Source of the DNA: Candidatus Desantisbacteria bacterium CG1_02_49_89
GTDB lineage: Bacteria; Desantisbacteria; UBA1551
Assembly (NCBI GenBank): GCA_001871075.1
Contig: MNUP01000083.1
Location: forward strand, 1 to 26,830
Direction of reading: 5' to 3'
DNA: 26,830 bases
Part shown: in pieces, positions 728-25,211 of the stretch
How the letters are laid out: each line of letters opens with the position of its first letter
How positions within the stretch are numbered: the stretch's first letter is position 1
The notes under the pieces: generated by a model
Databases searched by the model: none
Told to the model about the DNA's origin: nothing
The model's input: only the letters and a program-made list of their open reading frames with translations
Made by a program: the position numbers and the translations under genes

Positions 728-3700
728 AAACAGAGGAAGAAATGGCAAAACCCAAACCAGCTTTGAAAATAGAGGACGGAAAAGAAGGCAGGATCGCGGT
801 CCTGAAGGACGGGCTTCCCGGAATGGACCAGCAAGCGGTTGAACAGGCCGCGGCAGCCCTGCGCGCGAAGGGATTCGGCGTCACATTCCTTTCAGCTGAG
901 GATGCCTGCGGGGAAGACCTGAGCCGCGATAATTTTTTCCTTTACGTAATACCCAATTCAAGGTATTACCCGGCTAAGGGGATAGAGGTGCTGAGGAAAT
1001 ATATCCGCGGCAAAGGGAGCCTGGTCACGCTGGGCGGGCCGGCGTTCAAAAATATGCTGTGGAAGCAGAAGGTGGCGGGAAAGGACCAGTGGCTGGACAG
1101 GGAATCCTTCATAGAGCTGCTTTCAACTACCAAGCAGGAGAACATTTTCCTCAATTTCGAAGAAGACGATTTTTCCGGCTGGCAGCCTGCTACGAACGAG
1201 CCGGGCTCGGGTTCAATGGAGGCTGCGGCAGGCGGGGTTAAAGGCAAATGCCTGAAATTCGACATCTCAAACCTGAGCGGGTGGAGCACGTATTATTCAC
1301 CTTCCATCGACGGGATGTTCCCTGAGGGGCACGGCCTGCTGTGCTTCTGGGCAAAGGGGGACGACAAAACCCCGATGATGATAATAGAGATGAACGAGCA
1401 GGACGGGTCCAGGTGGATAGGGACCGTGAAGCTCACGGCCGGGTGGAAATACTACGTGATGTCGCCTGAGGAATTCCCCTACTGGCAGGATTCGCCCACG
1501 AAGGACAAGAGGGGGAAGCCCGGGGATTATTTCAATCCAGAGAACGCGGTAAAGATCAATTTCGGGATAGCGTTCAGCCACACGCCGATGGGAGGGGGGG
1601 CGCACACTTTCTGGATGGACGAAGTCGGCACCGCGAAGAATCCTTTCGGCAAGTTCGAGCAGGGGATGATGAGCGCTCCGCTTGTTATCGAGGCGATCTC
1701 GCCTTCATACAAGGTTTACAGGACAATGGAGCCGGTTTCTTCGGTTGCCGCGGACCAGGGCCAGGTAATAATAGACAAAAATACTTCTTTCGCCGCGCCT
1801 TCGGATTTTGTGTGCCCGGTGCACAGGCCTGTCGGGTCCGGCTACAAGAACAAACGCAGGCTGCGCTGGATCCCGCTTGCGAAATGCTTTGATAAGAACA
1901 AGGAAGAAAGGGGCGCCGTGATCTCAATTCTCGTGAACAACGCCCCGCCCTTCAAGGGCTCGATGTTCGCCGCCTTCGGAATGAACGACCAGGGGCTTTA
2001 CAAAGATGAGGCAGTGAAATCCGCGCTCGCGGAGGTCTGCCGCAGGATCAGGGACGGAATTTTCCTTTTTGAGGCAGGTTCCCAGTACTTCTCCTATTAC
2101 CCCGGAGAGGACGTTACGCTTGGGGCTGATGTCGTTAATTTCGGCGAAAAGGACGCGGACGTAACGGTAAGAATACAAATTATCCCCTCACCCCCATCTC
2201 AATCTTCCCCCGTCCCGCCCAGTAAAATTGGCGGGCAAGCCAAGGGGGAAGAGGATAAAACTAATGTAGCGGCAGGGCTTGCCCTGCAGCCTGTTTTTAA
2301 AAATGAATATAAAATTTCCTTGAAGGCGGGCCAGACCGGGTCCGCTGAATTCGCCTGGAGCCTTAAAGATCCGAAAGCGGACCTCTACGTTGTCAGGACC
2401 GAGCTTCTCAGGGACGGGAAGGTCATTGACGTTATAACCCACGAAATGGGCGTTCTGTCTGACAAGAAGCCCGCTCCGGATGATTTCGTTACGGTTAAGG
2501 ACGGCAATTTCTGGCTGAACGGGAAAAAATGGTATCCGGTGGCAATCAATTTCTGGCCCCTATATATTTCGGGCACTGAGCCGGGTGAATACCACCTTGG
2601 CTGGATCGACCCCGCGTACTACGAGCCGGCTGAGCTTGAGAAGGACCTTGAAAGGGCGAATGCACTGGGAATGACCATGCTCAGCGTCCAGATGGGCGGT
2701 AAGGGGAATGCGAGGAACCTTATGGATTTCCTGCGCCGCTGCGAAAAGCACGGCATAAAGGTGAACGGGTTCCTGAACGGCGCGTCTCCAATTGACTTCA
2801 ACGAGAAAACGGTAAGGGAATTCATGGAGGCCGGCAAATTAAAGGATAACCCCGCTGTTTTTGCCTATGACATAATCTGGGAGCCGGGCAATTCCATGTT
2901 CAATGCCGATGGCAGGAAGAGATGGGCAAAAGACTGGCAGGCATGGATAAACGAAAGGTACGGAAGCCTTGATAACGCTGAGGCGGACTGGGGCTTCACC
3001 ATACAGAAGGACGGCGCCAAAGCCCTGCCTCCAACAGACCAGCAGATGTCGCAGGACGGGGAATGGCGCGTGATGACAGCGGCTTATAGAAGGTTTATGG
3101 ACGACCTTATGAGCAGGAAGTGGAACGACGCGCACAGGAGGATAAAGAAGTACGATCCCAACCATCTTATAAGTTTCAGGCAGGGCAACACCCTTCCGCA
3201 CGATTTCGCTCTCACTGCCTGCTGCAAGCATATCGATTTCATATGCCCGGAAGGATATTCCATATCGAATTCAGATGACGGGTATAACGCTGCAGGCTTC
3301 ATAACCCGTTACGTCAACTTTACAACCCGGGGCAAGCCGATCTACTGGGCTGAGTTCGGGCAGAGCGTCTGGGATGGCTCAAGGATGGAGCCAAGCCTGT
3401 CCGCGATGAAGTCACAGGCTGAATACCATGACAGGTTCTACAGGATGGTGCTGGAAGCCTACGCGGTCGGCACAGCTCCCTGGTGGTGGCCGGGCGGTTA
3501 CAGGGTGGACGAGAAAAGCGATTACGGCATTATAAACCCTGACGGCACATTCAGGCCTTCGGCGCAGCTTTTAAAGAAGTATTCGCCGCTCATGCAGCAG
3601 GACAAGGCTTTACGCGTGCCTGACCACTGGATCACGTTTGACAGGGACACCCACGCAGGCGGCTACTGGTACATGGCTTTCCACGACGGCAAGGACGAGT

Positions 3701-4206
3701 ACAAGAAAGCGGTTTCATCTCAGAAGGTCCTGGGCATAAGATCCCCGGGTACAGGCATGAATTCCGCAAATGTCCTGCTGAAAGCAGTGGGAAACACCGC
3801 GTATAACGGCAAAAACCCGCCGAAATACCTTAACGCCGAGTTCAACTGGGTAAAGATAAAGGACGTAACAGGGGAATGGCAGGATATTTATTCAAGCAAG
3901 ACCATAGAGGTTGAAAAGGGAAAGCCGGTCCTGGCACAGGCAAGCATGGGGAACCTGGGTGAGGCTGAATGGTTCGCGCCCGCTCTTCATCCCGGCGCCG
4001 GAGGCGTGTGCCTCGGGTCCAGGGAAGGGGACGTGAAATTCAGCCAGCCTGTACCGAAGGATACGCTGTACCTCGCTGATGCCGTTATCGCGGAATTCAA
4101 GATTTGCGACGGAATAACAAGGGACGCGAAGGTCGTTTTTGAGATGAACGCGAAGGACCGCTGCTGGTTCGGCGAGAAACTAACAATAACCTTGATACCT
4201 AAATAA
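724..4206 (+). CDS. Multidomain glycoside hydrolase, clan GH-A-like TIM barrel (C-terminal part of a frameshifted gene)
   Basis: 1160 aa if started at ATG 724, which has AAGGAT 7 nt upstream but no signal peptide. Domains: Rossmann/flavodoxin-like (about 20-115), beta-sandwich carbohydrate-binding-like (about 140-305), an Ig-like region (about 465-590), TIM-barrel hydrolase (about 590-960), beta C-terminal domain. In clan GH-A a Glu after strand 4 is the acid/base and a Glu after strand 7 the nucleophile; the best candidates are E720 (IIWEPGN) and E877 (YWAEFGQ). WINERYGSLDNAEADWGF recalls GH5/GH42-like enzymes; the exact family and substrate are unknown. Collinear with the protein at 7223-11452, ending DRCWFGEK versus DRAWFGEK. 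A proline-rich stretch from about residue 487 to 522 is absent from the paralog and is encoded by palindromic repeats. The missing signal peptide fits this being the 3' part of one frameshifted gene. Confidence 0.85.
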   Translation: MKTEEEMAKPKPALKIEDGKEGRIAVLKDGLPGMDQQAVEQAAAALRAKGFGVTFLSAEDACGEDLSRDNFFLYVIPNSRYYPAKGIEVLRKYIRGKGSLVTLGGPAFKNMLWKQKVAGKDQWLDRESFIELLSTTKQENIFLNFEEDDFSGWQPATNEPGSGSMEAAAGGVKGKCLKFDISNLSGWSTYYSPSIDGMFPEGHGLLCFWAKGDDKTPMMIIEMNEQDGSRWIGTVKLTAGWKYYVMSPEEFPYWQDSPTKDKRGKPGDYFNPENAVKINFGIAFSHTPMGGGAHTFWMDEVGTAKNPFGKFEQGMMSAPLVIEAISPSYKVYRTMEPVSSVAADQGQVIIDKNTSFAAPSDFVCPVHRPVGSGYKNKRRLRWIPLAKCFDKNKEERGAVISILVNNAPPFKGSMFAAFGMNDQGLYKDEAVKSALAEVCRRIRDGIFLFEAGSQYFSYYPGEDVTLGADVVNFGEKDADVTVRIQIIPSPPSQSSPVPPSKIGGQAKGEEDKTNVAAGLALQPVFKNEYKISLKAGQTGSAEFAWSLKDPKADLYVVRTELLRDGKVIDVITHEMGVLSDKKPAPDDFVTVKDGNFWLNGKKWYPVAINFWPLYISGTEPGEYHLGWIDPAYYEPAELEKDLERANALGMTMLSVQMGGKGNARNLMDFLRRCEKHGIKVNGFLNGASPIDFNEKTVREFMEAGKLKDNPAVFAYDIIWEPGNSMFNADGRKRWAKDWQAWINERYGSLDNAEADWGFTIQKDGAKALPPTDQQMSQDGEWRVMTAAYRRFMDDLMSRKWNDAHRRIKKYDPNHLISFRQGNTLPHDFALTACCKHIDFICPEGYSISNSDDGYNAAGFITRYVNFTTRGKPIYWAEFGQSVWDGSRMEPSLSAMKSQAEYHDRFYRMVLEAYAVGTAPWWWPGGYRVDEKSDYGIINPDGTFRPSAQLLKKYSPLMQQDKALRVPDHWITFDRDTHAGGYWYMAFHDGKDEYKKAVSSQKVLGIRSPGTGMNSANVLLKAVGNTAYNGKNPPKYLNAEFNWVKIKDVTGEWQDIYSSKTIEVEKGKPVLAQASMGNLGEAEWFAPALHPGAGGVCLGSREGDVKFSQPVPKDTLYLADAVIAEFKICDGITRDAKVVFEMNAKDRCWFGEKLTITLIPK
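2184..2290 (+). repeat. Palindromic repeats inserted in frame in a hydrolase gene
   Basis: Two nested palindromes. CTTCCCCC (2204-2211) pairs with GGGGGAAG (2244-2251) around CCCGCC...GGCGGG. The inner hairpin at 2214-2235 recurs with 2 mismatches in 22 nt at 14217-14238 and 14288-14309. A second hairpin, CAGGGC-TT-GCCCTG (2273-2286), lies in a 25-nt segment (2262-2286) matching the intergenic copy at 25268-25292 at 22 of 25 positions. The insert keeps the frame open and adds about 35 residues that the paralog lacks. Confidence 0.8.
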
Positions 4207-7093: not shown

Positions 7094-7200
7094 CTCGTTC
7101 ATCGTGCTTCGTGCATCGTTCATCGCTGAAATAATATCCAGTAACAGTGTCCAGTATCCAGTAAAGACAAAATTCGCGGAAATTCGTGCTAATTCGTGGT
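7094..7200. repeat. Intergenic word repeats (CGTTCATCGTGCTTCG, CCAGTATCCAGTAA, AATTCGTGCTAATTCG)
   Basis: Three different degenerate tandem words lie one after another: CGTTCATCGTGCTTCGTGCATCG; TATCCAGTAACAGTGTCCAG; GGAAATTCGTGCTAATTCG. No ORF or clear terminator is visible. The CGTTCATCGTGCATCG word recurs at about 11455, 18884, 18967, 19815 and 20995. Confidence 0.7.
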
Positions 7201-7222
7201 TAAAATGTATTTAGGGGGAAAA

Positions 7223-10200
7223 ATGCGTAAAATAATATTTTTAGTTCTAATAACGTTTTTAACTTTCAACTTTCAACCTTTAACTTTTAACTGCGCGCCA
7301 GCGCAAGCGCAGGACAAGCCTCTCTGGTCCGACGACTTCACCAAAGGCGCCAGGGACTGGGAGGTCATAGCCGGCGACTGGGAAATAAAGGGCGGGAAAT
7401 GCCTTATAGCCGAACCGGCGCAGGCGTGGATCGTTTCCAGCAAGGCGCCTGACCTGGAGCAGCAGGTCCTGGAAGTGAAGATGACCGTGCAGGAAAGACT
7501 GAGCGAAGACGGCTGGTCTGTCGCCGGAATAATGATGTGGATAGACGCGGACAATTATTTCATGCTGGGGTTCACTGAGGCGCCTGATAAAAAACAGCAC
7601 TACATAGATTTTCTTGAGAACCTCGGCGGGAAATGGCAGGCTCAGCAGGAAGAGGGCACAAGGCTTAAGGCACTGAAGGAAAAGAACATGGCGCTGAACT
7701 GGAAATACAACACGGAATACAAGCTGCGTTTCGAGCTGGACAAGAAGGGGGTCACGGGAACGGTCCTGAACCCAGAAACGGACAAGGTTATTTCCCAGAG
7801 ACGCTACGAGTTCGGTGACGCGGAGGCGATACGCAGCGGCAGGTTCGGCATGCTTGTATGGGGCCAGACTGTTTCATACAGGGAACCTGCTGTCTGGAAA
7901 ACGCTTCCGGCTGTTGCGCCGGCTGCTGCTGCTCCTGCGGCTGTGCCGGCAACTCCGGCAGAGGTGAAGAAAGAAGTGAAAAAATCCGAAGGGACCCCTT
8001 TGGGGGAGGAGCCTGCTGCGGCTGCTGAACAGAAGAAGGAGGATGTTGTGAAAAAGAAATTTTCGGAAAAGATCGCGATCTTCGTTGAGCCTGACCTCGG
8101 GGCGGATAGATCCGCCGCGGAATCCTTAAAGAGCGCCCTGGACCAGGCAGGCCTGAAATCCAGGCTTATCAGCGGGGACGAGCTCTGCGACGGGGATTTT
8201 TTCAACCGCGGTAATTTTGACGTCGTAATTTTTCCCGCGGCAAAGACCTACCCCGCGGCCGGAGCGGCAAACATAGAGAAATTCCTCGCGAAAGGCGGCA
8301 ACCTTATAGCCGCGGGGGGGATCCCTTTTTCGAACCCCGCATGGAAAAAGGACAACAGGTGGATGGACAAAGAAACATTCATGCGCAGGCTCGCGGAAAT
8401 AAAAACAGAGAACATGGTCTTTGACTTTGAGGACGGAGACGTTTCAGGCTGGCAGAGAGGAGCCAACGATATGAATTCTCCCTCTGCGTTTGAGGTCCAG
8501 GACGGCGGTTTCAAGGGTTCCATGAACAGCCTGCTCATTGATATCGAGAACCTGTCCGGCTGGGATACCTGGAGGAAGGATTTCTCGGTCCCTCAGGGGC
8601 ACAACCTGTTCTGTTTCTGGGCGAAAGGCGACGACAGGACCGGGATGGTCTCGATCGAATGCGTTGAGGACGATTCTTCCAGGTGGATAGCAAGCGTCAG
8701 GATCTCGGACAAATGGGAAAAATACGCCATCTACCCGGAGGAGTTCAAATACTGGAAGGACAACCAGAGCAAGGGAAGGGGCGGCCCGAAGGACACGGTA
8801 AAGTTCGAGAACGTGAATGCTATTTCCGTGGGGCTTTCTTTCACGCACACGGCCGCGGTGGGGCCTGGACGGCACAGGCTCTGGATGGATGAGATAGGGA
8901 CCACCCAGAACACGCTTGGGAAACTTGACCAGCACAAGGAAATGGTTATCGACGGTCTGTGCCCCGCTTATAAGATGTTCCCGATGACGAATTACGCGTC
9001 AGCGAAGGTGGATGCTGGCCAGCTTTTTGTGAAGGACGCGGCAATACCCCGGGTCAAAGACCCGTTCTCATCAAGCCCCAGGCCCAAAGGGACCGGGTTC
9101 GGCAAGAAAAGAAGGATGCGTTTTATACCGTTGGTCAACGCCTATGACAAGAACGGCAAAAGATGCGGTTACCTTGCGTGGATGTTCGTCAACAATTTTT
9201 CCCCGCTGAAGGGCAGCGCGCTTGCCTGCCTCGGCATCACCCAGCAGGAGCTTTTAAAGGACAAAGCGTTCGCCGGGATGATCATTGACCTTGCGAAGAA
9301 GATGACGGACGGCGTTTATCTTTACGAGGGAGGGTCCCAGCTGCCTGTTTATTACCAGGGAGAAAGCGTGAAACTCGGGGCGCAGGTCGTGAATTTCGGC
9401 CAGAGTGAAAGCCAGGAACTTATTGCGCGGATAAAGGTCAAGCCCAGGGGTAAAGAAGAGATCGCTTTCCAGAAAGAACTGCCTGTCGTGATCGCGGACA
9501 AATCCATATCCGTGGATTGCGCCTGGGAGCCGGGCAAGTTCGCGGACAGGCTCTACGACGTCACGACCGAACTCGTCAGGAAAGGCCAGGTAATAGACAT
9601 GGCGCGGCAGGAACTGCAGGTATGGGAGCCAAAGCCGCTTGAAAAAAGGAATTACATGACCGTGAAGGACGGGGATTTTTACCTTAACGGAAAGAAATGG
9701 TACGCGCACGGCGTTAACTATATGTGCTCGACCGAAATAGCCATAGAGGACGGGGAGTATTTCGAGCAGTACTTGAGCGCACGGTCCTACGATCCCGATA
9801 TAGCGGAAGAGGACCTGGACAGGATGAAAGAAATGGGAATGAATATGGTCAGTATTTTTATATACCATCCCGCGCACAAGGCGCGCAACACCCAGGACCT
9901 TATGATGAGAAGCGAGAAACACGGAATAATGGTGAACCTTTCACTGCGGCCCAATGCCGATCCCCTGATGTTCAAGTGGAAGGAAGTAAAGGGGATGATA
10001 GAGGATATGCGCGCGGCTGAGTTCGACGTTCTTTTCGCCTATGACCTTGCCTGGGAGCGCACCTGGGGCACGTACGAATCCAGCTACGGGAACGCGAAAG
10101 GCAGGAAAGGATATGACAAAGAATGGGAGAAATGGATCATAGAAAGGTACGGCAGCATAGAGAACGCTGAAAAAGATTGGGAATTCCCGATCCCCAAAAA

Positions 10201-11452
10201 AGGCAAGGCAATCACCGGTCCGTCCGACCATCAGGTGCGGGAGGAAGGCGAGTGGCTGAAAATGGTCAGCGCTTACCGCAGGTTCGTGGACGACTTCGTG
10301 AGCAAGAAGTGCACTATCGCGACGCGTCTCATAAAAAGCATTGATCCGTACCATTTTGTGAGTTTCAGGATGGCGCATTCAGGCGATCCCACTGTCGCGC
10401 CCGAGGCATACGGCTACGATTTCAGGGCGTTCAGGTCCTTTGAGCTTGTGGAGCCTGAAGGGTACGGCAGGATAGGTGACTGGAACCGGGTGCGGGACGG
10501 AGCGTTCACCACCACTTACGCGAGATACACCGCTCCGGGAAGAGCGGTGATGTGGGCTGAGTTCGGGAACACGTCATGGTCAGGCACGAATTTCGGCCTT
10601 GCCCCTAACGTTGAAGCAGGCAAGGGGAAGCTTTACGACGATTTCTACAAAATGATAGTTATTTCCTATGCGAACGGAAGTTCATGCTGGTGGTTCCCGG
10701 GCGGGTTCAGGTTCGGGGAGAACAGCGATTTCGGGATAATAGGCCCTGACGGCTCCTGGCGCCCCACAACAGAGATGATAAGCAAATACGCGCCGCAGAT
10801 CACAACCCCGCGCCCGATGCCTGAAGTGGCAAAGTGGTTCGTGGTGGACAGGGACCTGACAGTGCGGGGGATAGCCGGAGTTTACGAAAAGATAAAGGAC
10901 GAATACTGGAGACTGCTTGACGCGGGCAAGTTGCCCGGGCTGAAAGACGAGGCAACAGGCACGAATTCGCTGAACACTCCCTTGAAAGCTGTGGGGAACG
11001 TGGAGTATAACGGCACAAACCCGCCCAAGTACCTGAATGCCGAGTTTAACTATGTCAGGATAAAGGTTGGAGTAGAGCCTTCCCTGCCCGCCAACGTATT
11101 AGTGGAGGGAGGCTCGTGGATTGAAGTTGAGGATGGCGCTCAAATAGAAGTTGCGGCCGGTGCTCCGGTGCAGTGCGTTGCATCCGCGGGAAATCTGCAG
11201 TCCGCGGCATGGATCGCGCCTGCGAATGCGAAGGGCGCGAAAGGCGCGGTTTACCTCTCAACCCCGAAAGAATCCGAGATACAGGCAAAGGCCGGGATAG
11301 CGAAAGACGCACCCTATTTTGCGGACGCGGATGTTCCTGAGTTCTTGCTGAGCAAGGGCATAAGCAAGGAAACGAAGGTGGTCCTGCAGATGACCGCGCT
11401 TGACCGTGCCTGGTTCGGCGAAAAGATCGAATTCACCCTGGTACCTAAATAA
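7223..11452 (+). CDS. Secreted multidomain glycoside hydrolase, clan GH-A-like (intact paralog)
   Basis: The start is ATG 7223 because AGGGGG lies 5-6 nt upstream and the protein then begins with a signal peptide (basic MRK, hydrophobic core, AQA/QD cleavage near residue 29); 1409 aa. Domains: jelly-roll LamG/DUF1080-like (about 33-230), A/P/E/K linker (about 232-283), Rossmann/flavodoxin-like (about 284-385), carbohydrate-binding-like beta sandwich (about 397-565), Ig-like (about 720-810), TIM barrel (about 812-1190), beta C-terminal domain. Putative catalytic glutamates are E945 (DLAWERTW) and E1113 (MWAEFGNT), equivalent to E720 and E877 of the upstream paralog. WWFPGGFRFGENSDFGIIG is shared almost exactly. 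Likely acts on a polysaccharide outside the inner membrane; substrate unknown. Part of the signal-peptide coding sequence (7260-7292) consists of the genomic word AACTTTCAAC. Confidence 0.87.
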   Translation: MRKIIFLVLITFLTFNFQPLTFNCAPAQAQDKPLWSDDFTKGARDWEVIAGDWEIKGGKCLIAEPAQAWIVSSKAPDLEQQVLEVKMTVQERLSEDGWSVAGIMMWIDADNYFMLGFTEAPDKKQHYIDFLENLGGKWQAQQEEGTRLKALKEKNMALNWKYNTEYKLRFELDKKGVTGTVLNPETDKVISQRRYEFGDAEAIRSGRFGMLVWGQTVSYREPAVWKTLPAVAPAAAAPAAVPATPAEVKKEVKKSEGTPLGEEPAAAAEQKKEDVVKKKFSEKIAIFVEPDLGADRSAAESLKSALDQAGLKSRLISGDELCDGDFFNRGNFDVVIFPAAKTYPAAGAANIEKFLAKGGNLIAAGGIPFSNPAWKKDNRWMDKETFMRRLAEIKTENMVFDFEDGDVSGWQRGANDMNSPSAFEVQDGGFKGSMNSLLIDIENLSGWDTWRKDFSVPQGHNLFCFWAKGDDRTGMVSIECVEDDSSRWIASVRISDKWEKYAIYPEEFKYWKDNQSKGRGGPKDTVKFENVNAISVGLSFTHTAAVGPGRHRLWMDEIGTTQNTLGKLDQHKEMVIDGLCPAYKMFPMTNYASAKVDAGQLFVKDAAIPRVKDPFSSSPRPKGTGFGKKRRMRFIPLVNAYDKNGKRCGYLAWMFVNNFSPLKGSALACLGITQQELLKDKAFAGMIIDLAKKMTDGVYLYEGGSQLPVYYQGESVKLGAQVVNFGQSESQELIARIKVKPRGKEEIAFQKELPVVIADKSISVDCAWEPGKFADRLYDVTTELVRKGQVIDMARQELQVWEPKPLEKRNYMTVKDGDFYLNGKKWYAHGVNYMCSTEIAIEDGEYFEQYLSARSYDPDIAEEDLDRMKEMGMNMVSIFIYHPAHKARNTQDLMMRSEKHGIMVNLSLRPNADPLMFKWKEVKGMIEDMRAAEFDVLFAYDLAWERTWGTYESSYGNAKGRKGYDKEWEKWIIERYGSIENAEKDWEFPIPKKGKAITGPSDHQVREEGEWLKMVSAYRRFVDDFVSKKCTIATRLIKSIDPYHFVSFRMAHSGDPTVAPEAYGYDFRAFRSFELVEPEGYGRIGDWNRVRDGAFTTTYARYTAPGRAVMWAEFGNTSWSGTNFGLAPNVEAGKGKLYDDFYKMIVISYANGSSCWWFPGGFRFGENSDFGIIGPDGSWRPTTEMISKYAPQITTPRPMPEVAKWFVVDRDLTVRGIAGVYEKIKDEYWRLLDAGKLPGLKDEATGTNSLNTPLKAVGNVEYNGTNPPKYLNAEFNYVRIKVGVEPSLPANVLVEGGSWIEVEDGAQIEVAAGAPVQCVASAGNLQSAAWIAPANAKGAKGAVYLSTPKESEIQAKAGIAKDAPYFADADVPEFLLSKGISKETKVVLQMTALDRAWFGEKIEFTLVPK

Positions 11453-13331: not shown

Positions 13332-13883
13332 ATGGATTTTAAGACCGTATTAAAAATATTGCTTAAGAACTTCCGTAAAGAAAATATCCGCTATGCGTTG
13401 ATAGGCGGTTTTGCTCTTGGCGCGCTTGATACTCCGCGCTCGACCGTTGATATTGATTTCCTTGTTCATCTTGACGACATGCCGAAGGTTGACGAGATCA
13501 TGAAAGGCAGCGGTTACGAATGCAGGTTTAAGAGCGGGAATGTTTCGCAATACGTTTCACCGCTTGAAATGTTCGGGGAAGTGGATTTCCTGCACGCTTT
13601 CAGAAAAACCGCGGTAGCCATGCTTGAAAGAGCGGTTGAAAAAGATATTTTTAAGAAATTAAAAATCAGAGTTCTTCAGCCCGAGGACATAATAGGCCTG
13701 AAAATACAGGCGGCCGCCAATGACGAGAACAGAGTTGAACGGGAATATTCGGACATAGGAACGCTGATGAAGAATTACGGGAAGAAATTAAACTGGGATC
13801 TTTTAGAAGAATATTTTAGCATATTTAAAGAGAAAAAAAGATTCTCGGATCTAAAAAAGAGGTATCATAATGCTGAGCGCTGA
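13332..13883 (+). CDS. Nucleotidyltransferase of the MNT/AbiEii-like superfamily
   Basis: 183 aa. The nucleotidyltransferase signature is complete: G25-G26 (LIGGFALGAL), D40-x-D42 (TVDIDFLV) and a third acidic residue D85 (GEVDFLHAF), so it is likely active in transferring a nucleotide to a protein, RNA or small molecule. The C-terminal helical half (PEDIIGLKIQAAANDENR) resembles DUF6036/AbiEii-type stand-alone enzymes. There is no strong Shine-Dalgarno before the ATG. It overlaps the next gene by 14 nt, so the two are translationally coupled. Such pairs are often toxin-antitoxin-like; which partner is toxic, if either, cannot be told from sequence. Confidence 0.8.
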   Translation: MDFKTVLKILLKNFRKENIRYALIGGFALGALDTPRSTVDIDFLVHLDDMPKVDEIMKGSGYECRFKSGNVSQYVSPLEMFGEVDFLHAFRKTAVAMLERAVEKDIFKKLKIRVLQPEDIIGLKIQAAANDENRVEREYSDIGTLMKNYGKKLNWDLLEEYFSIFKEKKRFSDLKKRYHNAER

Positions 13884-14091
13884 AATCAAGAAAGAAATGC
13901 GGGAGCTTGCAAGATCATCCAGACTCCGGGAAGATATGAGATATGTAGCAGAGGGCAGGCACAATCCGTTTTTCGTAGATGGTAAAACGGACATGAACCG
14001 CCTGATCGAATTCCTGACAGAGTCAAACGCGTTTATAAACCATAAGCGCCGGCCTTTCCGCCGCATTAAAGATAAGATCATGAAATTATAA
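13870..14091 (+). CDS. Small charged protein coupled to the nucleotidyltransferase
   Basis: 73 aa, starting inside the last codons of the upstream gene with AGAGGT about 7 nt before its ATG. Rich in Arg, Lys and Glu, with the pattern RxREDMRYVxEGRHNPFxVDGKxDMNRLIEFL and ending FINHKRRPFRRIKDKIMKL. I recall similar short proteins next to nucleotidyltransferases in candidate-phylum genomes, but no function is assigned to them. The overlap suggests a two-protein unit, possibly antitoxin-like or a substrate-recognition partner; this is inference. Confidence 0.7.
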   Translation: MLSAEIKKEMRELARSSRLREDMRYVAEGRHNPFFVDGKTDMNRLIEFLTESNAFINHKRRPFRRIKDKIMKL

Positions 14092-14201
14092 TTTTGTTTT
14101 ACTAAAGACCACCCGTATTTACCGCAAACGTTTGTTTTTCGGATTTAGCAGTTCCTTGTAAACTTGTAAACTTATAAACTCTGCAAACTGTTTATTTTTA
14201 C

Positions 14202-14340
14202 GAAATCGGGGCGTAGCCCGCCCAGCAAGATTGGCGGGTAAACTCCTCAAAAGTGGAATTGTCATAATTCGGGAAATCGGGGCGTAGCCCGCCCAGCAAG
14301 ATTGGCGGGTAAACTCCTCCTGTTTAGCGCACACGCTTAC
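14202..14340 (+). repeat. Two tRNA-Pro-derived mosaic repeats
   Basis: An exact 47-nt direct repeat at 14202-14248 and 14273-14319 (71 bp apart). Each copy begins with the first 11 nt of the downstream tRNA (CGGGGCGTAGC) and continues into the CCCGCC...GGCGGG hairpin and TAAACTCCTC. The second copy also carries TAGCGCACACGCTT (14325-14338), an exact 14-nt match to tRNA positions 14404-14417. It therefore looks like a tRNA whose D-loop was replaced by a hairpin element. No functional cloverleaf can form. Confidence 0.8.
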
Positions 14341-14383
14341 GGCGGGTAAACTGTAAAAGTGGAATAATCGTTAATCAGTGAAT

Positions 14384-14457
14384 CGGGGCGTAGCGCAGCC
14401 TGGTAGCGCACACGCTTGGGGTGCGTGGGGTCATGGGTTCAAATCCCGTCGCCCCGA
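14384..14457 (+). tRNA. tRNA-Pro (anticodon GGG)
   Basis: A complete 74-nt cloverleaf can be drawn. Acceptor CGGGGCG pairs with CGCCCCG; D stem GCGC/GCGC with loop AGCCTGGTA; anticodon stem CACGC/GCGTG with loop TTGGGGT and anticodon GGG at 14418-14420; variable loop GGGTC; T stem ATGGG/CCCGT with TTCAAAT loop; discriminator A at 14457. CCA is not encoded. The GGG anticodon reads CCC/CCU proline codons. Confidence 0.96.
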
Positions 14458-14598
14458 TTGATTTTCTGCTTTGCAGAAAATCTGGAGTCCCGATGTTACA
14501 TCGGGACGGTCTATTGCTCAATTTTCTATTTTCGGAAAGATTTGTCGCCACTTCGGCGACCCGCCGATGAGGCGGGAAGCCAACTTTCGCGCATCCAT
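14446..14598. repeat. 153-bp direct repeat, copy 1 (begins in tRNA-Pro 3' end)
   Basis: Identical to 14743-14895 apart from one base (C at 14454, T at 14751), offset 297 bp. It starts with the last 12 nt of the tRNA, then TTTTCTGC-TTT-GCAGAAAA and GTCCCGATGTTACATCGGGAC hairpins and a CCCGCC-GATGA-GGCGGG hairpin. Short ORFs through it are translation artefacts of a tRNA-associated repeat. Confidence 0.9.
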
Positions 14599-14742
14599 AC
14601 GGATGAAAAGCCCGAAGGGCGTCAGCGAAAGTGGCCGGCTTCGGATGGTGAGTGGTCCGACGAATAAGTCGGACCGAGTTACGAACGCCACCGAGATGGT
14701 GAGGTGGCCGGGCGAGCAGAGCGACGAGGGAGAAGAAATCCT
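14599..14742. other. Spacer between the tRNA-associated direct repeats
   Basis: A 144-bp GC-rich spacer with several hairpins, for example GGTCCGAC-GAATAA-GTCGGACC and CCACC-GAGAT-GGTG. I see no credible gene: the open frames have no ribosome binding site and run into the repeats. Confidence 0.6.
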
Positions 14743-14895
14743 CCGTCGCCTCGATTGATTTTCTGCTTTGCAGAAAATCTGGAGTCCCGATGTTACATCG
14801 GGACGGTCTATTGCTCAATTTTCTATTTTCGGAAAGATTTGTCGCCACTTCGGCGACCCGCCGATGAGGCGGGAAGCCAACTTTCGCGCATCCAT
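14743..14895. repeat. 153-bp direct repeat, copy 2 (border of the AT-rich island)
   Basis: The second copy of the repeat at 14446-14598. It carries a 12-nt duplicate of the tRNA 3' end (CGTCGCC-T-CGA, one mismatch). Base composition drops sharply to AT-rich immediately after its end at 14895. Confidence 0.9.
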
Positions 14896-14930
14896 TATTA
14901 AAAATAGAAAAAACAAGCATCTAGGAAAAA

Positions 14931-15562
14931 ATGATAATTTTAGGAATTATTTTTATTATAATTGGTTTAATACTTATTCAATGGCATGGTAGAAATTATC
15001 TAAATCGTGGAAAAAGACCCTTTTCAATTGTTAATTCCTCGATTTTTAATTGGTTTTTTTAATAATTGAGAATGTTATAATTATTAGCGGTTTTATACTT
15101 ATTTTTAGATCTTCTATTTTAGCTGGATTCATTATTTTAGGTATATATTTGTTTATTTTTATTTGGATGCAAATAGGCGGTAGTACAAAATCAACGAGAA
15201 AGACAATGCTGAGTGCATATATTAATATAAAAAAAGCGAATCCTCTTAAAGAAGAGTTAAATGAAAATAAAAAAGAAGAACATGAAAAAGAAATTTTATT
15301 TTTAACATTAGTATCAAGATTTCGTATTGCACGATGGTACAACAATGATATTTCTATCACTAACCATATTTTAAAAGGAATGGTCAATGAATGCCCTAAT
15401 ATAGATGACCTGAGTAATTTTGTTATACTTTTTGAATTTAATGAAAACCCTGGAATGGATATTATGGATATTCAGGAAGTATTTGAAAAAACACAATATG
15501 AATTTTATAAGATAAAGAAAGCCGGTATTAATATAGAGGATTATATAAAAAAGCTTGAATAA
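14931..15562 (+). CDS. Membrane protein interrupted by a -1 frameshift at a T7 run
   Basis: ATG 14931 with AGGA 5 nt upstream opens a 43-aa frame (MIILGIIFIIIGLILIQW...) that stops at TAA 15060-15062, straight after seven T's (15054-15060). Adding one T, or a -1 slip, joins it to the frame that continues LIIENVIIISGFILIF to 15562. That downstream frame has no start of its own except a TTG at 15050 directly after a stop. Together they encode about 213 aa: three hydrophobic segments in the first 90 residues, then a charged cytoplasmic domain (KEELNENKKEEHEKE...). The family is not recognised. It may be a membrane component of the downstream operon, which starts 77 bp later. Confidence 0.6.
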
Positions 15563-15639
15563 TAAGCAAAAAAGTAAAAACAAATGAAAATTGGTAAGTT
15601 CAATATTGCAAATCTTAATAAATTCTTAAAGAGGTGATT

Positions 15640-16857
15640 ATGATGAAAAACCCAATTTTTATTTCAGAATTAATTCTAAAAAGGTTCAGAAGCATTCTTT
15701 CTGCTAAAATCCCTTTTGAAAATCTAACTTTTTTAGTCGGTAGAAATGGAGCTGGGAAAAGTAACATTGTAGATATATTTCAATTCCTTTCTGACTTAAT
15801 GACTGTCCCTTTAAAAGCAGCTCTTGATACACGCGGAGGATTAGATGCAGTTCGTCATAGAAGTTCTCAAAGAGGTTATCCTGCTAGTATGGGTTTAAGA
15901 TTAAATTTTACTATACCTATGTCAAATAATATTAAAAAAAAAGGAATGTATGCTTTTGAAATAAAAGCACTTCCTAAACACCAATTTGAGGTAGTTAGAG
16001 AACAATGTAGATTAGAAGGAAATCAAGAATTTGAATGGTTTGATCGCCACGTTACTTCTTTTTCATCGAGTTTGGGACTTAAACCTTCACTTGATCCCCA
16101 ATCCCTTGTTTTACCTATTATTGGTGGCACTTTTGAATTTATGCCAGTTCTAAAATCAATAGCTTCTATGCAGGTTTATTCTATTGTGCCTTCTCAAATA
16201 CGTGAGCTTCAATCTCCAGATAGCGGGCTAAGGTTGCAATCAGACGGAAGTAATATAACTAGTGTATTGCAGGAGCTACAAAGATCACACGAAGATGTAT
16301 TTAAAAACTTGGGTGAATTATTAAAAGCAGTAGTTCCTGGAATAAATAGCGTTCGTACTAAAAAGCATGCAAAAAAGTTATCTTTAGAATTTACACAATC
16401 ATGGAGTAATGGAAAAAATGGGCAAAAAAGCAAAGAGATAAAATTTGAATCTTTTTCAATGTCAGACGGAACTCTTAGGGCAATCGGTGTTTTGACTGCT
16501 CTTTTACAACAACCGATTCCGTCACTTATAGTAATAGAAGAACCAGAAGCAACTATTCATCCAGGTGCTCTCGGAGCACTTATGGATGGCGTTCGAACTT
16601 CATCAAGAAATACACAGATTATTTTAACAACTCATTGCCCAGAAATACTTGATTTTAAATGGCTTAATCCAGATCAAATTAGAGTTGTTGATTGGCAAAA
16701 GGGAGCTACGCAAGTCTATAAACCATCTCAAGCTGCTATCGAATCGGTAAGGAATAATTTAATGGGATTAGGTGATCTTATGAGGAGCGGTATTTTAGAA
16801 AGTGGCAATGAGCTTTTTGAACCGCATATAGCTCAACTTAATTTATTTGAGGATTAA
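15640..16857 (+). CDS. AAA/ABC-type ATPase (AAA_21, SMC/RecF-like) of a putative defence system
   Basis: 405 aa. GTG 15634 is part of the ribosome binding site AGAGGTG, so ATG 15640 (or 15643) is preferred. Walker A is GRNGAGKS at 34-41; an ABC-like signature S275-D276-G277 (SMSDGTLRAIGVL); Walker B LIVIEEPE with E300/E301; and a switch His H332 (TTHCPEIL). These order the protein as a head-domain ATPase like OLD, RecF and AriA, without a long coiled coil. Its stop is 2 nt before the next gene, a DUF4276 protein. ATPase plus TOPRIM-like pairs are typical of anti-phage systems, where the ATPase senses or scaffolds and the partner cleaves nucleic acid. The defence role here is inferred from family and context. 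Confidence 0.88.
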   Translation: MMKNPIFISELILKRFRSILSAKIPFENLTFLVGRNGAGKSNIVDIFQFLSDLMTVPLKAALDTRGGLDAVRHRSSQRGYPASMGLRLNFTIPMSNNIKKKGMYAFEIKALPKHQFEVVREQCRLEGNQEFEWFDRHVTSFSSSLGLKPSLDPQSLVLPIIGGTFEFMPVLKSIASMQVYSIVPSQIRELQSPDSGLRLQSDGSNITSVLQELQRSHEDVFKNLGELLKAVVPGINSVRTKKHAKKLSLEFTQSWSNGKNGQKSKEIKFESFSMSDGTLRAIGVLTALLQQPIPSLIVIEEPEATIHPGALGALMDGVRTSSRNTQIILTTHCPEILDFKWLNPDQIRVVDWQKGATQVYKPSQAAIESVRNNLMGLGDLMRSGILESGNELFEPHIAQLNLFED

Positions 16858-16859
16858 AA

Positions 16860-17519
16860 ATGGAGCCATTAATAATTCAACCCATAGTTGAAGGACATGG
16901 TGAAGTAGATTCCGTAGGGATTCTTTTAAGAAGAATGCTTGCTGAAATTCAAATATATAATGTTTTTATAAAGAGACCAATGCGTTGGCCCAAAAGCAAA
17001 CTTATAAATGTTGAGGAATTAAAAAAACGAGTTCAGCTAGCAAATATAAATTTGGGTGCAGCAAACAAAAAAGCTATTATTATAATATTCGATGCTGATG
17101 ATGATTGTCCACGTGATTTGGTAAACAGACTTTTGGGACCAGTAAAAGTTGTTGCGGGAAACACACCTTGTACAATTATAATAGCAAAACATGAATATGA
17201 ATCTTGGTTTTTAGGTTGCATAGAAAGCTTGCGAGGAAAAAGATCAATTAATACCGATGCAACCTTTAATGAGGATCCTGAAAATATTAGTGGGGCAAAA
17301 GGTCGTTTAGAGGAGATGATGAATCGTTCTTATCAGGAGACAACCGATCAAGCAGCACTTACTGCGCAAATGAATTTTGAGAACTGTTATCAAAATTGTC
17401 GGTCTTTTCGTAAATTGGCGAAAGATATTTTCGTAATAGTTCGTGATTTAGGATACGTTTATTTTACAGAAACTAATTGGGGAAATTTAATTGCTAACGA
17501 GATAAGAAATAATGTATAA
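16860..17519 (+). CDS. DUF4276 family TOPRIM-like protein
   Basis: 219 aa, starting 2 nt after the ATPase stop and overlapping the next gene by 8 nt. The N-terminal strand-turn PIVEGHGE gives E11-G12 and E15. IIIIFDADDD gives D78, D80 and D81. Together these make the acidic TOPRIM-like metal site. HEYESWFLG (E112, E114, W116) is the characteristic DUF4276 motif. TOPRIM folds in OLD and AriB proteins act as metal-dependent nucleases. Direct coupling to an ATPase gene suggests it is the effector or a regulated subunit. Nuclease activity is inferred, not shown. Confidence 0.85.
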   Translation: MEPLIIQPIVEGHGEVDSVGILLRRMLAEIQIYNVFIKRPMRWPKSKLINVEELKKRVQLANINLGAANKKAIIIIFDADDDCPRDLVNRLLGPVKVVAGNTPCTIIIAKHEYESWFLGCIESLRGKRSINTDATFNEDPENISGAKGRLEEMMNRSYQETTDQAALTAQMNFENCYQNCRSFRKLAKDIFVIVRDLGYVYFTETNWGNLIANEIRNNV

Positions 17520-18072
17520 TAGACTTAAAGAAGCTTTTAATTGTTTGAATAAAGAATATAGAAATAATCACTTTAGTCCAATTATCGAAGATGATTTTCT
17601 GGCAAGAATTTATTATCATATCTTAAAACATAATAAGGAACTTAACTCTAAAATATTTTTAAAAACTCGAATTTTTCAAAATATACCGCAATTAAGAAAA
17701 AATAAATATGATTTAGTTGTTGGCGAAAGAATAGAAAATAGAAATGAAGTATATGTGGAACCAGATCTTGTTGCTGAATTTAAAATATTCCCCGTTGGTT
17801 TTAGCTCATCAATACTTAGCAAAAGGCGAAATCAATCAGCCGAAGATATCTCGAAATTAAATGATATTTTTACATATTCTCACAACAAAACATGTCTAGT
17901 TTTTTGTTTTTTTGATGTTATAGGATGGCTAAAAGGTTCTAATCAAATAGATAATAATACACGTCTAGAAAAGTTAATAGAATTTCGCGATTCAATTAAC
18001 TCATCAATTAAAATATTGGGAATATCTGCTATCAACAAAGATGATAAAAGAACCCAAATTATAGAATTTTAA
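17512..18072 (+). CDS. Putative PD-(D/E)XK-like nuclease, third gene of the defence operon
   Basis: 186 aa; its ATG lies inside the end of the DUF4276 gene (8-nt overlap). There is no family I recognise with certainty. The order of E26 in an N-terminal helix (IIEDDFLARIYYHI), D67 (KYDLVVG) and E89-x-K91 (PDLVAEFKIF) on successive predicted strands fits the PD-(D/E)XK restriction-endonuclease-like core. The C-terminal half has KTCLVFCFFDVIGW, a plausible later core strand. The strict overlap suggests it is made in stoichiometry with the first two proteins. Without structure prediction the nuclease call stays moderate. Confidence 0.6.
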   Translation: MYNRLKEAFNCLNKEYRNNHFSPIIEDDFLARIYYHILKHNKELNSKIFLKTRIFQNIPQLRKNKYDLVVGERIENRNEVYVEPDLVAEFKIFPVGFSSSILSKRRNQSAEDISKLNDIFTYSHNKTCLVFCFFDVIGWLKGSNQIDNNTRLEKLIEFRDSINSSIKILGISAINKDDKRTQIIEF

Positions 18073-18159
18073 TAAAAATATAAAAGTAATTTCATTCAAA
18101 AAATTAATATCTATAATAACATTATTAGCGACAAACATGTACGAGAATGGAGTTTAATA

Positions 18160-18876
18160 ATGTACGAAGAGCGCATTTACCGCCGCGATTATATAACCGA
18201 GGACCTTAAAGGTTTTGAGGTGATGGTCAAGGAAAGCGACCTTTACATATGCGCCGCATCCGACCTTTCTTCCGAGGCGATCGAATCCACGCTCAAGTAC
18301 CGCTCCCAGATAGAGGAATATATAAAAAAGCACCCGCAGTTCCTCAGCAGTCTGACACCGCTGCCAATCGATGTTCTCGCGGCTCCCATAGTGAACGAGA
18401 TGCTGCGGGCGGGCGAAACCGCAGGCACCGGACCGATGGCGGCTGTTGCCGGAGCGATAGCGGAATACGTTGGCAGGGACCTTCTGAAATATTCGCCTGA
18501 AGTCATAGTGGAGAACGGCGGCGATATTTTTTTAAAAAGCCTGAAGAACCGCAGGCTCGGGATACATGCGGGAAACTCTCCCTTAAGCGAGAGGATAACG
18601 GTGGAGATCGAGGCAAAGCAGACGCCGGTCGGCGTATGCACTTCTTCCGGCACTGTCGGCCCGTCGCTCAGTTTCGGCAGGACAGATGCGGCACTTGTTG
18701 TCGCGTCTTCCGCGGCATTAGCGGACGCCTGCGCCACGGCGATAGGCAACATCGTCAAGGAACCCGGGGATATTAAAAGGGCTCTTGAGTTCGGAAAGAA
18801 AGCAAAGGGCGTCAGGGGAGTGCTTATAATAATGAAAGACAAGCTTGGTGCATGGGGAGCCATTAAAATCGTATAA
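18160..18876 (+). CDS. UPF0280 family protein (ApbE-like fold)
   Basis: 238 aa, GGAG 7 nt before ATG. It matches UPF0280/COG2122 by MAAVAGAIAEYVG, VENGGDIFL, and the C-terminal region with TSSGTVGPSLSFGRTDAA and ADACATAIGN. This resembles the flavin-handling ApbE fold, but no activity is firmly established. Composition is backbone-like, so the AT-rich island ends just before it. A TATAAT at 18112-18117 inside the island edge could serve as a -10 box, but no good -35 is visible. The first 8 nt of the gene (ATGTACGA) are also present at 18137-18144. Confidence 0.85.
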   Translation: MYEERIYRRDYITEDLKGFEVMVKESDLYICAASDLSSEAIESTLKYRSQIEEYIKKHPQFLSSLTPLPIDVLAAPIVNEMLRAGETAGTGPMAAVAGAIAEYVGRDLLKYSPEVIVENGGDIFLKSLKNRRLGIHAGNSPLSERITVEIEAKQTPVGVCTSSGTVGPSLSFGRTDAALVVASSAALADACATAIGNIVKEPGDIKRALEFGKKAKGVRGVLIIMKDKLGAWGAIKIV

Positions 18877-18881
18877 AAAAA

Positions 18882-18985
18882 CGTTCATCGTTCTTCGTTC
18901 ATCGTTAAAACTCCTTTGTTCCATATTTTTCAAAGAGGAGTAGCAGGGGCATTACAAAGCACGACGCACGATGAACGATGCACGA
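18882..18985. repeat. Inverted pair of CGTTCATCGT words around a hairpin
   Basis: The left arm CGTTCATCGTTCTTCGTTCA (from 18884) is mirrored by the right arm GCACGATGAACGATGCACGA (18966-18985). Between them ACTCCTTTG and CAAAGAGGAGT (about 18910-18940) form an inner hairpin with a one-base bulge. The right arm supplies the spurious upstream ATG at 18971 that would otherwise extend the next gene. Confidence 0.75.
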
Positions 18986-18997
18986 CCGGAGGTCATA

Positions 18998-19813
18998 ATG
19001 AAACTGTGCATAAACGGCGCCACAACAATGCCGTATCAGCTTCAGGAAGATATTGTTTTCGCGCATAAAGCCAAGTTTACGGGAATAGAGATCTGGTATG
19101 ACAAGCTGAAAAAATTCCTTGCCGACGGCAACACCCTCGTAAAACTGCAGGAGCTTCTCTGGAGCGCGGAGCTGGAGCCGGTTTCTCTCTGCCCGGTCCC
19201 GCTGATAGCGTTCTCAGATAACGAACAGGCGATACAGGAAGCGGTAAAGGCGGCGCAGATCGCGGCGCAGATCGACTGTTCAACCATTCTCGTGTACCCG
19301 GCGGACGCCCAGCCGGAAGGCGTTACCAAAGAGGATGCGAAGAAAAAAGCCGCGGCAGCCCTGAAGGCCTACGCTGAGGCGATCCAGTCCTGCAAGGTAA
19401 AGATCGCGTTTGAACCCATAGGGATGCACCCGTATGTTCCAAAGCCGCAGGACGCGCTCGAAATAATAAGCGCAGCCGGCAGCGATAACCTCGGGATAAT
19501 GTTGGATACGTTCCACCTTTACAAGTCAGGCGTGACGCTTGAAGAGATAAAGAGCGTTCCGGTTGAAAAGCTGCTTCTAGTGCACGTGGGTGACTGCGAG
19601 GACGCGCCCAGGGAAAAGCTCGGGGCTGAACAGCAGGTTTACCCGGGCCTGGGGGTTGTTCCGCTCGTGGACATTTTCAGGATCCTGAGGGATAAAGGCT
19701 ACAAAGGATTCCTTTCAGTGGAGATATTCAGGCAGGACTACTGGAAGGAGAACCCTGAAAAGATCGCGGCTGACGCCAAGAAATATCTGGACGCTTTGCT
19801 TGCCAAACTGTAA
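18998..19813 (+). CDS. Sugar phosphate isomerase/epimerase (xylose isomerase-like TIM barrel)
   Basis: 271 aa from ATG 18998, chosen because GGAGG (18988-18992) is 5 nt upstream and the codons before it derive from the intergenic repeat. The AP-endonuclease-2/xylose-isomerase-like barrel has its four metal ligands in order: E139 (FEPIGMH), D170 (MLDTFH), H196 (LVHVGD) and E242 (LSVEIF). These enzymes isomerise or epimerise ketoses, inositol derivatives or hydroxypyruvate; the substrate cannot be told here. The neighbouring Gfo/Idh/MocA dehydrogenase is a frequent partner of such epimerases in sugar or inositol catabolism. Confidence 0.88.
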   Translation: MKLCINGATTMPYQLQEDIVFAHKAKFTGIEIWYDKLKKFLADGNTLVKLQELLWSAELEPVSLCPVPLIAFSDNEQAIQEAVKAAQIAAQIDCSTILVYPADAQPEGVTKEDAKKKAAAALKAYAEAIQSCKVKIAFEPIGMHPYVPKPQDALEIISAAGSDNLGIMLDTFHLYKSGVTLEEIKSVPVEKLLLVHVGDCEDAPREKLGAEQQVYPGLGVVPLVDIFRILRDKGYKGFLSVEIFRQDYWKENPEKIAADAKKYLDALLAKL

Positions 19814-21116: not shown

Positions 21117-21716
21117 ATGTTTACAGGCATTGTTAAGGAATTGGGCATAATAAAAGGCATAGCCCGGAAAGGGCTTTCGATAGAGATCACGGTCCAGTCA
21201 TGCCTTGCGAAAGGCCTGAAGCCCGGTGACAGCGTTTCAATAAACGGGGTATGCCTCACGGCCACGGAAACCAAAGATGGCGAATTCAGGGTTGACGCGG
21301 TCGCTGAAACCCTCGGAAAAACAACGTTTGGGAACCTGGGGGTCAGGGAAAAGGTTAACCTTGAGCCGGCTCTTGCCTCAGGCCAGCCGATGGGCGGCCA
21401 TATCGTGAACGGCCATGTGGACGGCGTTGGGATAATCAGGAGCAGGATCCAGAAAGGTAATTCGGTTATTTTTGAGTTTTCCCTTCCTTCAGAGGTCCGC
21501 GGGCTGTCAAAATATATCGTGGACAAAGGCCCTGTAGCGGTTGACGGCATAAGCCTTACTGTTGTCGAGGCTAAAACCTACGCGTTTACGGTTTCCGTCA
21601 TCCCTTTTACCATAGAAAACACGACCCTTGGTTTCAAGAAAGTCGGTGAAAAGGTTAATATCGAGGTTGATATTATTGCCAAATATGCAGAAAAAGCGGG
21701 TAGCCGCAACCTTTAG
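21117..21716 (+). CDS. ribE: Riboflavin synthase, alpha subunit
   Basis: Dismutates two 6,7-dimethyl-8-ribityllumazine molecules to riboflavin. 199 aa with the invariant MFTGIV start and two lumazine-binding repeats: repeat 1 has GDSVSINGVCLT; repeat 2 begins at MGGHIVNGHVDGVG and has GPVAVDGISLT and SVIPFTIENTT. Length is normal for the trimeric enzyme. The last codons (GSRNL and the stop) belong to a palindromic repeat at 21699-21749, so the C-terminus after VDIIAKYAEK was rewritten by the element. It stands alone, without ribD, ribBA or ribH, and I see no FMN riboswitch upstream. Confidence 0.96.
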   Translation: MFTGIVKELGIIKGIARKGLSIEITVQSCLAKGLKPGDSVSINGVCLTATETKDGEFRVDAVAETLGKTTFGNLGVREKVNLEPALASGQPMGGHIVNGHVDGVGIIRSRIQKGNSVIFEFSLPSEVRGLSKYIVDKGPVAVDGISLTVVEAKTYAFTVSVIPFTIENTTLGFKKVGEKVNIEVDIIAKYAEKAGSRNL

Positions 21717-23735: not shown

Positions 23736-25211
23736 ATGGACTATAAAATAGTTGTGCTGGACATCGGCAAGACAAACAAGAAGATAGTGGTGTTCTCTAA
23801 GGACCTTAAGATCCTTTCAAGGGAATCCACCCGGCTCGGGGACAAGCTTGTCAAAGGCGTTCTCTGCGACAGGATCTACGACCTTAACAGGTGGGTCCTC
23901 GGCAGGCTGAAAGCGATAAGCGGGAAACACAGGGTTAAAGTGATTTCCGCGACCACTTACGGCGCGACCATCGCCTGCATCGGAAAAGACGGAGACCTTG
24001 CGTTCCCGGTTGTTTCTTATATGCACGAGCCGGGCGAAAAAACCCGCAAGAAATTCTATTCGGCACTCGGTTCAGCGCAGGACCTTTACGTCAGGACAGC
24101 CACCCCGCTCTTTGAAAAATTGCTCAGCGTAGGCATGCAGTTGTTTTGGTTGAAGGAAAAAAGGAGGCCCGATTTTAATCGGGTAAAAAATATCCTGTTC
24201 CTCCCGCAGTATGAAGGATACGTTCTTACCGGAAAAAAAGCCGTTGAACTCACAAGCGTTGGCTGCCACACGTACCTTTATGACTTCTGCCGAAGGTCCT
24301 GGAGCGAAACGGCAAAAAAACTCGGAGCAACGGGAAAGTTTCCAGCGCGGTTTTCAAAGTCCTGGGATGATCTCGGCAGGATAAGCCCTCAAATAAGCAG
24401 GGCTACGGGGCTTGCTCCGGATTGCGCTGTTTCCGTGGGCATACACGATTCAAACGCGTCCCTGCTTCCGTACCTCCTTGCCAAAAAGGGCAGGTTCATA
24501 CTGGTAAGCACAGGCACCTGGGGTATACATATGTTCAGCGGCAGTTCCTTTTATTTATCCCCGGAGGATATGAAGAAGGATACGCTCTATTACCTGGATG
24601 TTTTCGGCAGGCCGGTCAGGGCGGCAAGGACCGCCATGGGCATGGAGCACGATCATTACAGCGGGTTGATCGAAAAGAAATTCGGTTTTGACCCGCGCAG
24701 CATTAAGCCGGATGCCGGCCTGATAAAAGAAATAATATCGGAAAATAAGTGCTTTATTATCCCGACAGTCATAAAGGGCACAGGCCAGTTCCAGGATTCA
24801 AAGCCCGGCATAACCGATCGCAGGTTCTTTTACAGGGACGCGAGAACCGCTTACACGGTTTTGAATATATCGCTCGCGCTCCAGTCCTATTTCGCCATCA
24901 AGCAGGCTTTCGGCAGGGAGGAAAGTAAGAGCATTCCGGTTTACGTGGAGGGAGGGTTCCGCAATAACGGGATCTACCTGAACGCGCTTTCCGCTCTTTT
25001 TACCGGGCAGCCCGTTGTCGCGACTGAGATACAGGAGGCAACTGCGCTGGGCGCCGCGATCTGCGGAAAGTGCGCCGCAGAGGGCATAAGCCCTCGGGAC
25101 ATAGACCCGCGCCTGATAAAGATCAGCGAAAAGCCTGTTTCAAAACTCGGTACCGATCCAGAAGTAATCCGTCAATATATTATCAGCTTCGAAAGACACT
25201 GTTTAATATAA
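23736..25211 (+). CDS. FGGY-family carbohydrate kinase
   Basis: 491 aa, the usual length for FGGY kinases. The first ATP/phosphate-binding loop is VLDIGKTNKK (D9, K12, T13). The catalytic base is probably D238 in GIHDSNAS, followed by LVSTGTWG and the C-terminal adenosine motif VYVEGGFRNNGIYLNAL. Overall closest in feel to L-rhamnulose/L-fuculose kinases, but the sugar cannot be assigned. No Shine-Dalgarno precedes the ATG; instead a pair of AATCAC(C/T)GTAATC boxes ends 10 nt upstream. With the 3-epimerase it makes a plausible ketose-use pathway: epimerise, then phosphorylate. Confidence 0.9.
   Translation: MDYKIVVLDIGKTNKKIVVFSKDLKILSRESTRLGDKLVKGVLCDRIYDLNRWVLGRLKAISGKHRVKVISATTYGATIACIGKDGDLAFPVVSYMHEPGEKTRKKFYSALGSAQDLYVRTATPLFEKLLSVGMQLFWLKEKRRPDFNRVKNILFLPQYEGYVLTGKKAVELTSVGCHTYLYDFCRRSWSETAKKLGATGKFPARFSKSWDDLGRISPQISRATGLAPDCAVSVGIHDSNASLLPYLLAKKGRFILVSTGTWGIHMFSGSSFYLSPEDMKKDTLYYLDVFGRPVRAARTAMGMEHDHYSGLIEKKFGFDPRSIKPDAGLIKEIISENKCFIIPTVIKGTGQFQDSKPGITDRRFFYRDARTAYTVLNISLALQSYFAIKQAFGREESKSIPVYVEGGFRNNGIYLNALSALFTGQPVVATEIQEATALGAAICGKCAAEGISPRDIDPRLIKISEKPVSKLGTDPEVIRQYIISFERHCLI

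Follow-up and report, generated by a model that had tools for sequence, protein, structure and literature searches.

In the PARIS system, the AriA ATPase holds AriB, and a phage trigger frees AriB to cleave host tRNA (PMC12409363). The OLD and Gabija nucleases offer a further comparison for the roles of sensor and nuclease (PMC10568477), and OLD-ABC ATPases have been reported with PD-(D/E)XK, HNH or PIN nucleases as partners (PMC12839542). Another set of systems is known as HEC, for Hma-embedded candidate, several of which, including HEC-04 and HEC-06, have reported antiviral activity (PMC12111858, PMC12988326). A limited literature search found no published test of HEC-01 itself, and a literature search on DUF4276 found no paper.

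Here we describe a locus of three genes within a stretch of 26,830 nucleotides, which we refer to as the window. Judged by their profile matches, the first two genes belong to HEC-01, a candidate anti-phage system catalogued in PADLOC. We consider it likely that the locus is a horizontally acquired HEC-01-type anti-phage module, with the ATPase as sensor and the TOPRIM protein as effector, and that the third gene, most likely of the PD-(D/E)XK type, is an accessory or a neighbour. The three genes are:

15640..16857, plus strand: gene 1, 405 aa, OLD/AAA_21-type ABC ATPase, HEC-01A-like, predicted sensor/regulator
16860..17519, plus strand: gene 2, 219 aa, DUF4276 TOPRIM-like protein, HEC-01B-like, predicted nuclease effector
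17512..18072, plus strand: gene 3, 186 aa, orphan, candidate PD-(D/E)XK nuclease (D67, E89, K91)

An earlier note on this DNA had described three AT-rich genes, and the ORF coordinates, all on the plus strand, agree with it: genes 1 and 2 are separated by 2 nt and genes 2 and 3 overlap by 8 nt. The motif residues that it named in the three proteins are all present in the translations, and the genes have a GC content of 0.26-0.35. An alternative GTG start upstream of gene 1, at 15634, would make the ATPase 2 residues longer.

The ATPase-DUF4276 pair and known systems

Gene 1 matches the PADLOC model HEC-01A (PDLC04178) with E=2e-109 and 364 bits, covering 3-394 of 399, and the Pfam family AAA_21 with 93 bits, above the cut-off. 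Its Walker A motif (GRNGAGKSN, residues 34-42, including K40), its signature (SDGTLR, 275-280), its Walker B motif, which ends in E300-E301-P-E303, and its switch histidine H332 are invariant in nine relatives at every position except R35 and A38 of Walker A. Together, these matches and motifs support the proposal that gene 1 encodes an ABC-type ATPase. MADS3 was rejected, its match of 106 bits falling short of the 420-bit cut-off.

Gene 2 matches HEC-01B (PDLC04196) with E=2.9e-60 and 202 bits, covering 3-191 of 197, and the Pfam family PF14103 (DUF4276) with 63 bits against a cut-off of 30. Among 23 related sequences, E11, D78, E112, E114 and K147 are invariant and D80 is nearly so; E11, D78 and D80 are the conserved acidic metal-site residues expected of an OLD-type TOPRIM domain. 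An AF2 model of gene 2 built from 15 sequences reached a mean pLDDT of 93.9 and a pTM of 0.90, and the solved structures closest to it are the OLD TOPRIM domains from Xanthomonas and Burkholderia (6nk8/6njv), which take ranks 1 and 2 in Foldseek (E of 1.4e-3 and 2.1e-3). With VIA-align, Z is 8.4 for 6nk8_A (171 of 198 residues aligned) and 8.2 for 6njv. Unrelated alpha/beta folds follow closely at a Z of about 8, and because this margin is small we regard the structural match as supportive, not decisive, for a TOPRIM-like fold. The case otherwise rests on the conserved VEG...E, DxD and ExE residues, and with the PF14103 match it upholds the earlier identification of gene 2 as a TOPRIM-like DUF4276 protein. 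From its conserved residues alone, gene 2 is predicted to be a nuclease.

Both proteins thus match HEC-01 near full length, and their gene order and tight spacing are those of the relatives; what differs here is the extra overlapping 186-aa gene and a stretch of about 20 C-terminal residues of the DUF4276 protein that is absent from relatives. The earlier note had not recognised the combination of genes as described, but the pairing of an ATPase with DUF4276 is a catalogued one. The naming within the catalogue deserves some care, as the PADLOC model PDLC04144, named HEC-01B, matches the ATPase and PDLC04143, named HEC-01A, matches DUF4276, so that the two labels look swapped.

The locus had also been called PARIS-like, and here the comparison divides. 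Like PARIS, it has separate genes for an OLD-like ABC ATPase and a TOPRIM protein, and a functional analogy to OLD and PARIS is reasonable. However, gene 2 comes from another TOPRIM family (PF14103, DUF4276) and has no match to the PADLOC AriB models at E<=1, while the AriA model matches gene 1 with E=3e-27 and 94 bits, 270 bits below HEC-01A, reflecting the common ATPase domain only. We therefore rejected membership in PARIS for want of an AriB match. With OLD and GajA of Gabija the locus shares an ABC ATPase and an OLD-type TOPRIM, as seen in the best matches of the gene 2 model, but the two are encoded here by two genes rather than in one polypeptide. Among the four island ORFs of at least 100 aa (opposite-strand shadows excluded) none encodes a helicase, and Gabija was rejected for want of GajB. 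The AbiLi model matches gene 1 as well (E=1.4e-26), although far more weakly than HEC-01A, and AbiL was rejected because its partner is missing, with no match of AbiLii to gene 2 at E<=1.

By analogy with PARIS and OLD/Gabija, the ATPase probably serves as the sensor, and the effector is probably the TOPRIM protein, acting as a metal-dependent nuclease; the defence activity of the pair, its sensing, its cleavage and its target are inferred. In the mechanism that we propose, the OLD-like ABC ATPase would act as the sensor, holding or gating the DUF4276 TOPRIM protein, which upon a phage trigger would cut nucleic acid through a metal site formed by E11/D78/D80. The cutting, whether of host tRNA (the PARIS case) or of DNA (the OLD/Gabija case), would stop the infection.

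Recurrence and genomic setting

The ATPase and DUF4276 genes are a recurrent unit that is tightly linked across many phyla. A profile search identified 61 DUF4276 ORFs in the fetched loci, and for 52 of them the gene directly before is the ATPase; as two of the resulting pairs are copies of the window itself, 50 others remain. A contig pattern scan that was built on the ATPase alignment and covered one genome per species found relatives of the ATPase in Poribacteria, Verrucomicrobia, Proteobacteria, Actinomycetota, Meiothermus, Planctomycetes and others. Within the genome studied here, the ATPase, the DUF4276 gene and gene 3 each occur only once.

The neighbourhoods of the related pairs bear on whether the pair is antiviral or instead a housekeeping or DNA-repair module of the RecF/SMC kind. 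Many related pairs lie among metabolic or housekeeping genes, outside defence islands, and SMC/RecF models also match the ATPase, albeit weakly, both of which would suit such a module. Against this stand the island setting of the pair, the patchy distribution of DUF4276, which occurs in 72 of 386 sampled genomes, and the clustering of pairs with HEC-03, restriction-modification-like and Gabija-like genes. In locus L101, a HEC-03B ATPase (446 bits) follows two genes after the pair; on a Streptomyces plasmid (L174) the pair, with a 2-nt gap, stands 1.1 kb before an AAA ATPase and a helicase that resemble Gabija; and, as read from sequence, Mod-like and Res-like genes flank the pair on either side in L064 and an HsdM-like gene lies near it in L072. 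We thus regard a housekeeping or repair role as very improbable, and the HEC-01 matches, the island setting and these defence neighbourhoods together favour the candidate defence operon that the earlier note had proposed.

The locus L101 also shows an arrangement of its own. Between 655 and 3678, the DUF4276 gene is followed by a 145-aa gene without a known family, with an overlap of 4 nt, then by the HEC-03B ATPase and a PIN-like ORF, and from its gene content this segment is two candidate systems in tandem.

In the window, the three genes lie in an island whose composition differs sharply from that of its surroundings:

14383..14458, plus strand: tRNA-Pro(GGG), found by ARAGORN and by Rfam (61.7 bits), to the left of the variable region
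14896..18140, approximate ends, no strand: AT-rich island, GC 0.27-0.36 compared with about 0.5
15050..15562, plus strand: membrane-protein-like ORF, 170 aa, no family match, possible fourth island gene

GC3 is about 0.2 in the island and about 0.65 outside it, and gene by gene the contrast is between 0.16-0.22 in the island genes and 0.62-0.70 in four flanking metabolic genes, whose GC content is 0.54. In G001, a genome from the same phylum and order, tRNA-Pro and the downstream genes are kept in the same order (with counterparts matching the window at 18160-18876, 18971-19813, 21117-21716 and 23736-25211), the island is absent and two other genes occupy its place. The comparison fits a variable site beside tRNA-Pro, occupied in the window by a foreign-looking island.

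Several further features surround the pair. Directly upstream of the ATPase, an ORF for a 43-aa membrane peptide (14931-15062) is followed by a run of T and then by the 15050-15562 ORF in another frame, so that 14931-15562 looks like a single gene split by a frameshift; no relative of the 15050-15562 ORF was found beside other pairs. Stretches resembling the 5' start of tRNA-Pro lie upstream of it at 14178-14347, and a 153-nt repeat that begins within its 3' end is present at 14446-14598 and at 14743-14895, the end of the second copy marking the start of the island. More than 50 places in the genome match pieces of this repeat region (14178-14895). At 13332-14091, across tRNA-Pro from the island, a gene for an AbiEii/NTP_transf_5-like nucleotidyltransferase (183 aa) overlaps a 73-aa ORF without a family match, and the two are possibly a small toxin-antitoxin-like pair. 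Farther away, 724-4206 and 7196-11452 encode two very long proteins (1160 and 1418 aa) that look related, contain glycoside-hydrolase-like stretches and are probably paralogues.

The third gene

Gene 3 carries D67, E89 and K91 in the context YD67LVV...LVAE89FK91I. Because 79% of shuffled versions of the protein contain the bare spacing D-x(10-30)-[DE]-x-K, this spacing was rejected as evidence. With its hydrophobic context (YDLV...LVAEFKI) the pattern, which was written post hoc, occurs in 0.4% of gene 3 shuffles and in 3 of 933 background ORFs, and among the fetched loci the window is the only one with a PD-(D/E)XK-like pattern in the ORF straight after the pair. Moreover, the protein can be read as a helix (about 26-40), a strand, YDLVVG, LVAEFKIF, a helix (about 110-121) and a strand (about 127-134), which is the order expected of a PD-(D/E)XK core. 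Taken together, we find it fairly probable that gene 3 belongs to the PD-(D/E)XK type.

Profile searches gave gene 3 no family match in Pfam, NCBIfam or PHROGs and none at E<=1 to PD-(D/E)XK families, those of PADLOC included, and such searches often miss remote members. The sole sub-threshold PADLOC match, RTasDUF1848 (E=0.004), was set aside as a chance match. Searches uncovered no credible relative in 403 genomes, that is, 386 broadly sampled ones and 17 further ones from the four small phyla of G040, which has two HEC-01 pairs, and of G328, G222 and G086, which have DUF4276; nor was there one in plasmids, phages or PDB sequences, or in pattern scans of one-genome-per-species and viral contigs, which reach close relatives only. 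Weak fragments in L075, L077 and L080 were rejected as short chance matches. Gene 3 follows DUF4276 in none of 26 HEC-01 loci inspected (one of which ends at a contig edge), where the next gene instead reads as a sulfatase, an RlmN-like gene, a restriction gene or the like, or lies on the opposite strand, and it is missing from all of the about 50 other ATPase-DUF4276 pairs.

These results weigh on a true three-subunit variant, in which a PD-(D/E)XK nuclease encoded by gene 3 would work with the pair in a role such as that of second effector or DNA-cutting arm. The 8-nt overlap, the common strand, the shared AT-rich composition and the catalytic pattern in its correct hydrophobic context would all fit such a variant, as would the PD-(D/E)XK, HNH and PIN partners reported for OLD-ABC ATPases (PMC12839542), but in the other examples the pair occurs without gene 3, and gene 3 lacks a homologue in every collection searched, which leads us to think this variant unlikely. 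Recurrence of the trio in other genomes had been set as a test beforehand, and no recurrence was seen in the collections searched. As gene 3 has no detectable relatives, the trio finds no support beyond the adjacency of its genes, and the earlier view of gene 3 as an added subunit is left unsupported. A dedicated HEC-01 subtype with a PD-(D/E)XK third subunit, in which one sensor ATPase would preside over two nuclease folds and which would so far be confined to this genome, seems to us more doubtful still.

At the other extreme, gene 3 may be an unrelated orphan, either a non-nuclease or a decaying gene, that overlaps gene 2 by chance. No homologue was found at any sensitivity tried, the gene is very AT-rich and its protein rich in Asn, Ile and Lys, and a single-sequence AF2 model gave no confident structure (pLDDT 34.8, too poor for a fold search), although this last result is uninformative because single-sequence AF2 usually fails for orphans. 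The intact frame of 186 aa, the tight overlap and the rarity of the ordered D...ExK pattern in background ORFs speak against it, and we consider this reading rather unlikely. Our preferred reading remains that gene 3 most likely encodes a PD-(D/E)XK-type nuclease that the island carries, whether as an optional accessory of the HEC-01-type pair or as an independent neighbour. OLD-type ATPases with PD-(D/E)XK nucleases in the place of TOPRIM have already been reported (PMC12839542), so that a gene 3 nuclease, if confirmed, would combine known parts in a new way.

If gene 3 were indeed a subunit, an OLD-type ATPase would drive two nuclease folds at once. For gene 2, the confident TOPRIM-like model supplies conserved residues for testing. 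Finally, an unnamed DUF4276 operon, from a phylum represented by two genomes in our comparison, can now be placed in a catalogued candidate defence system.
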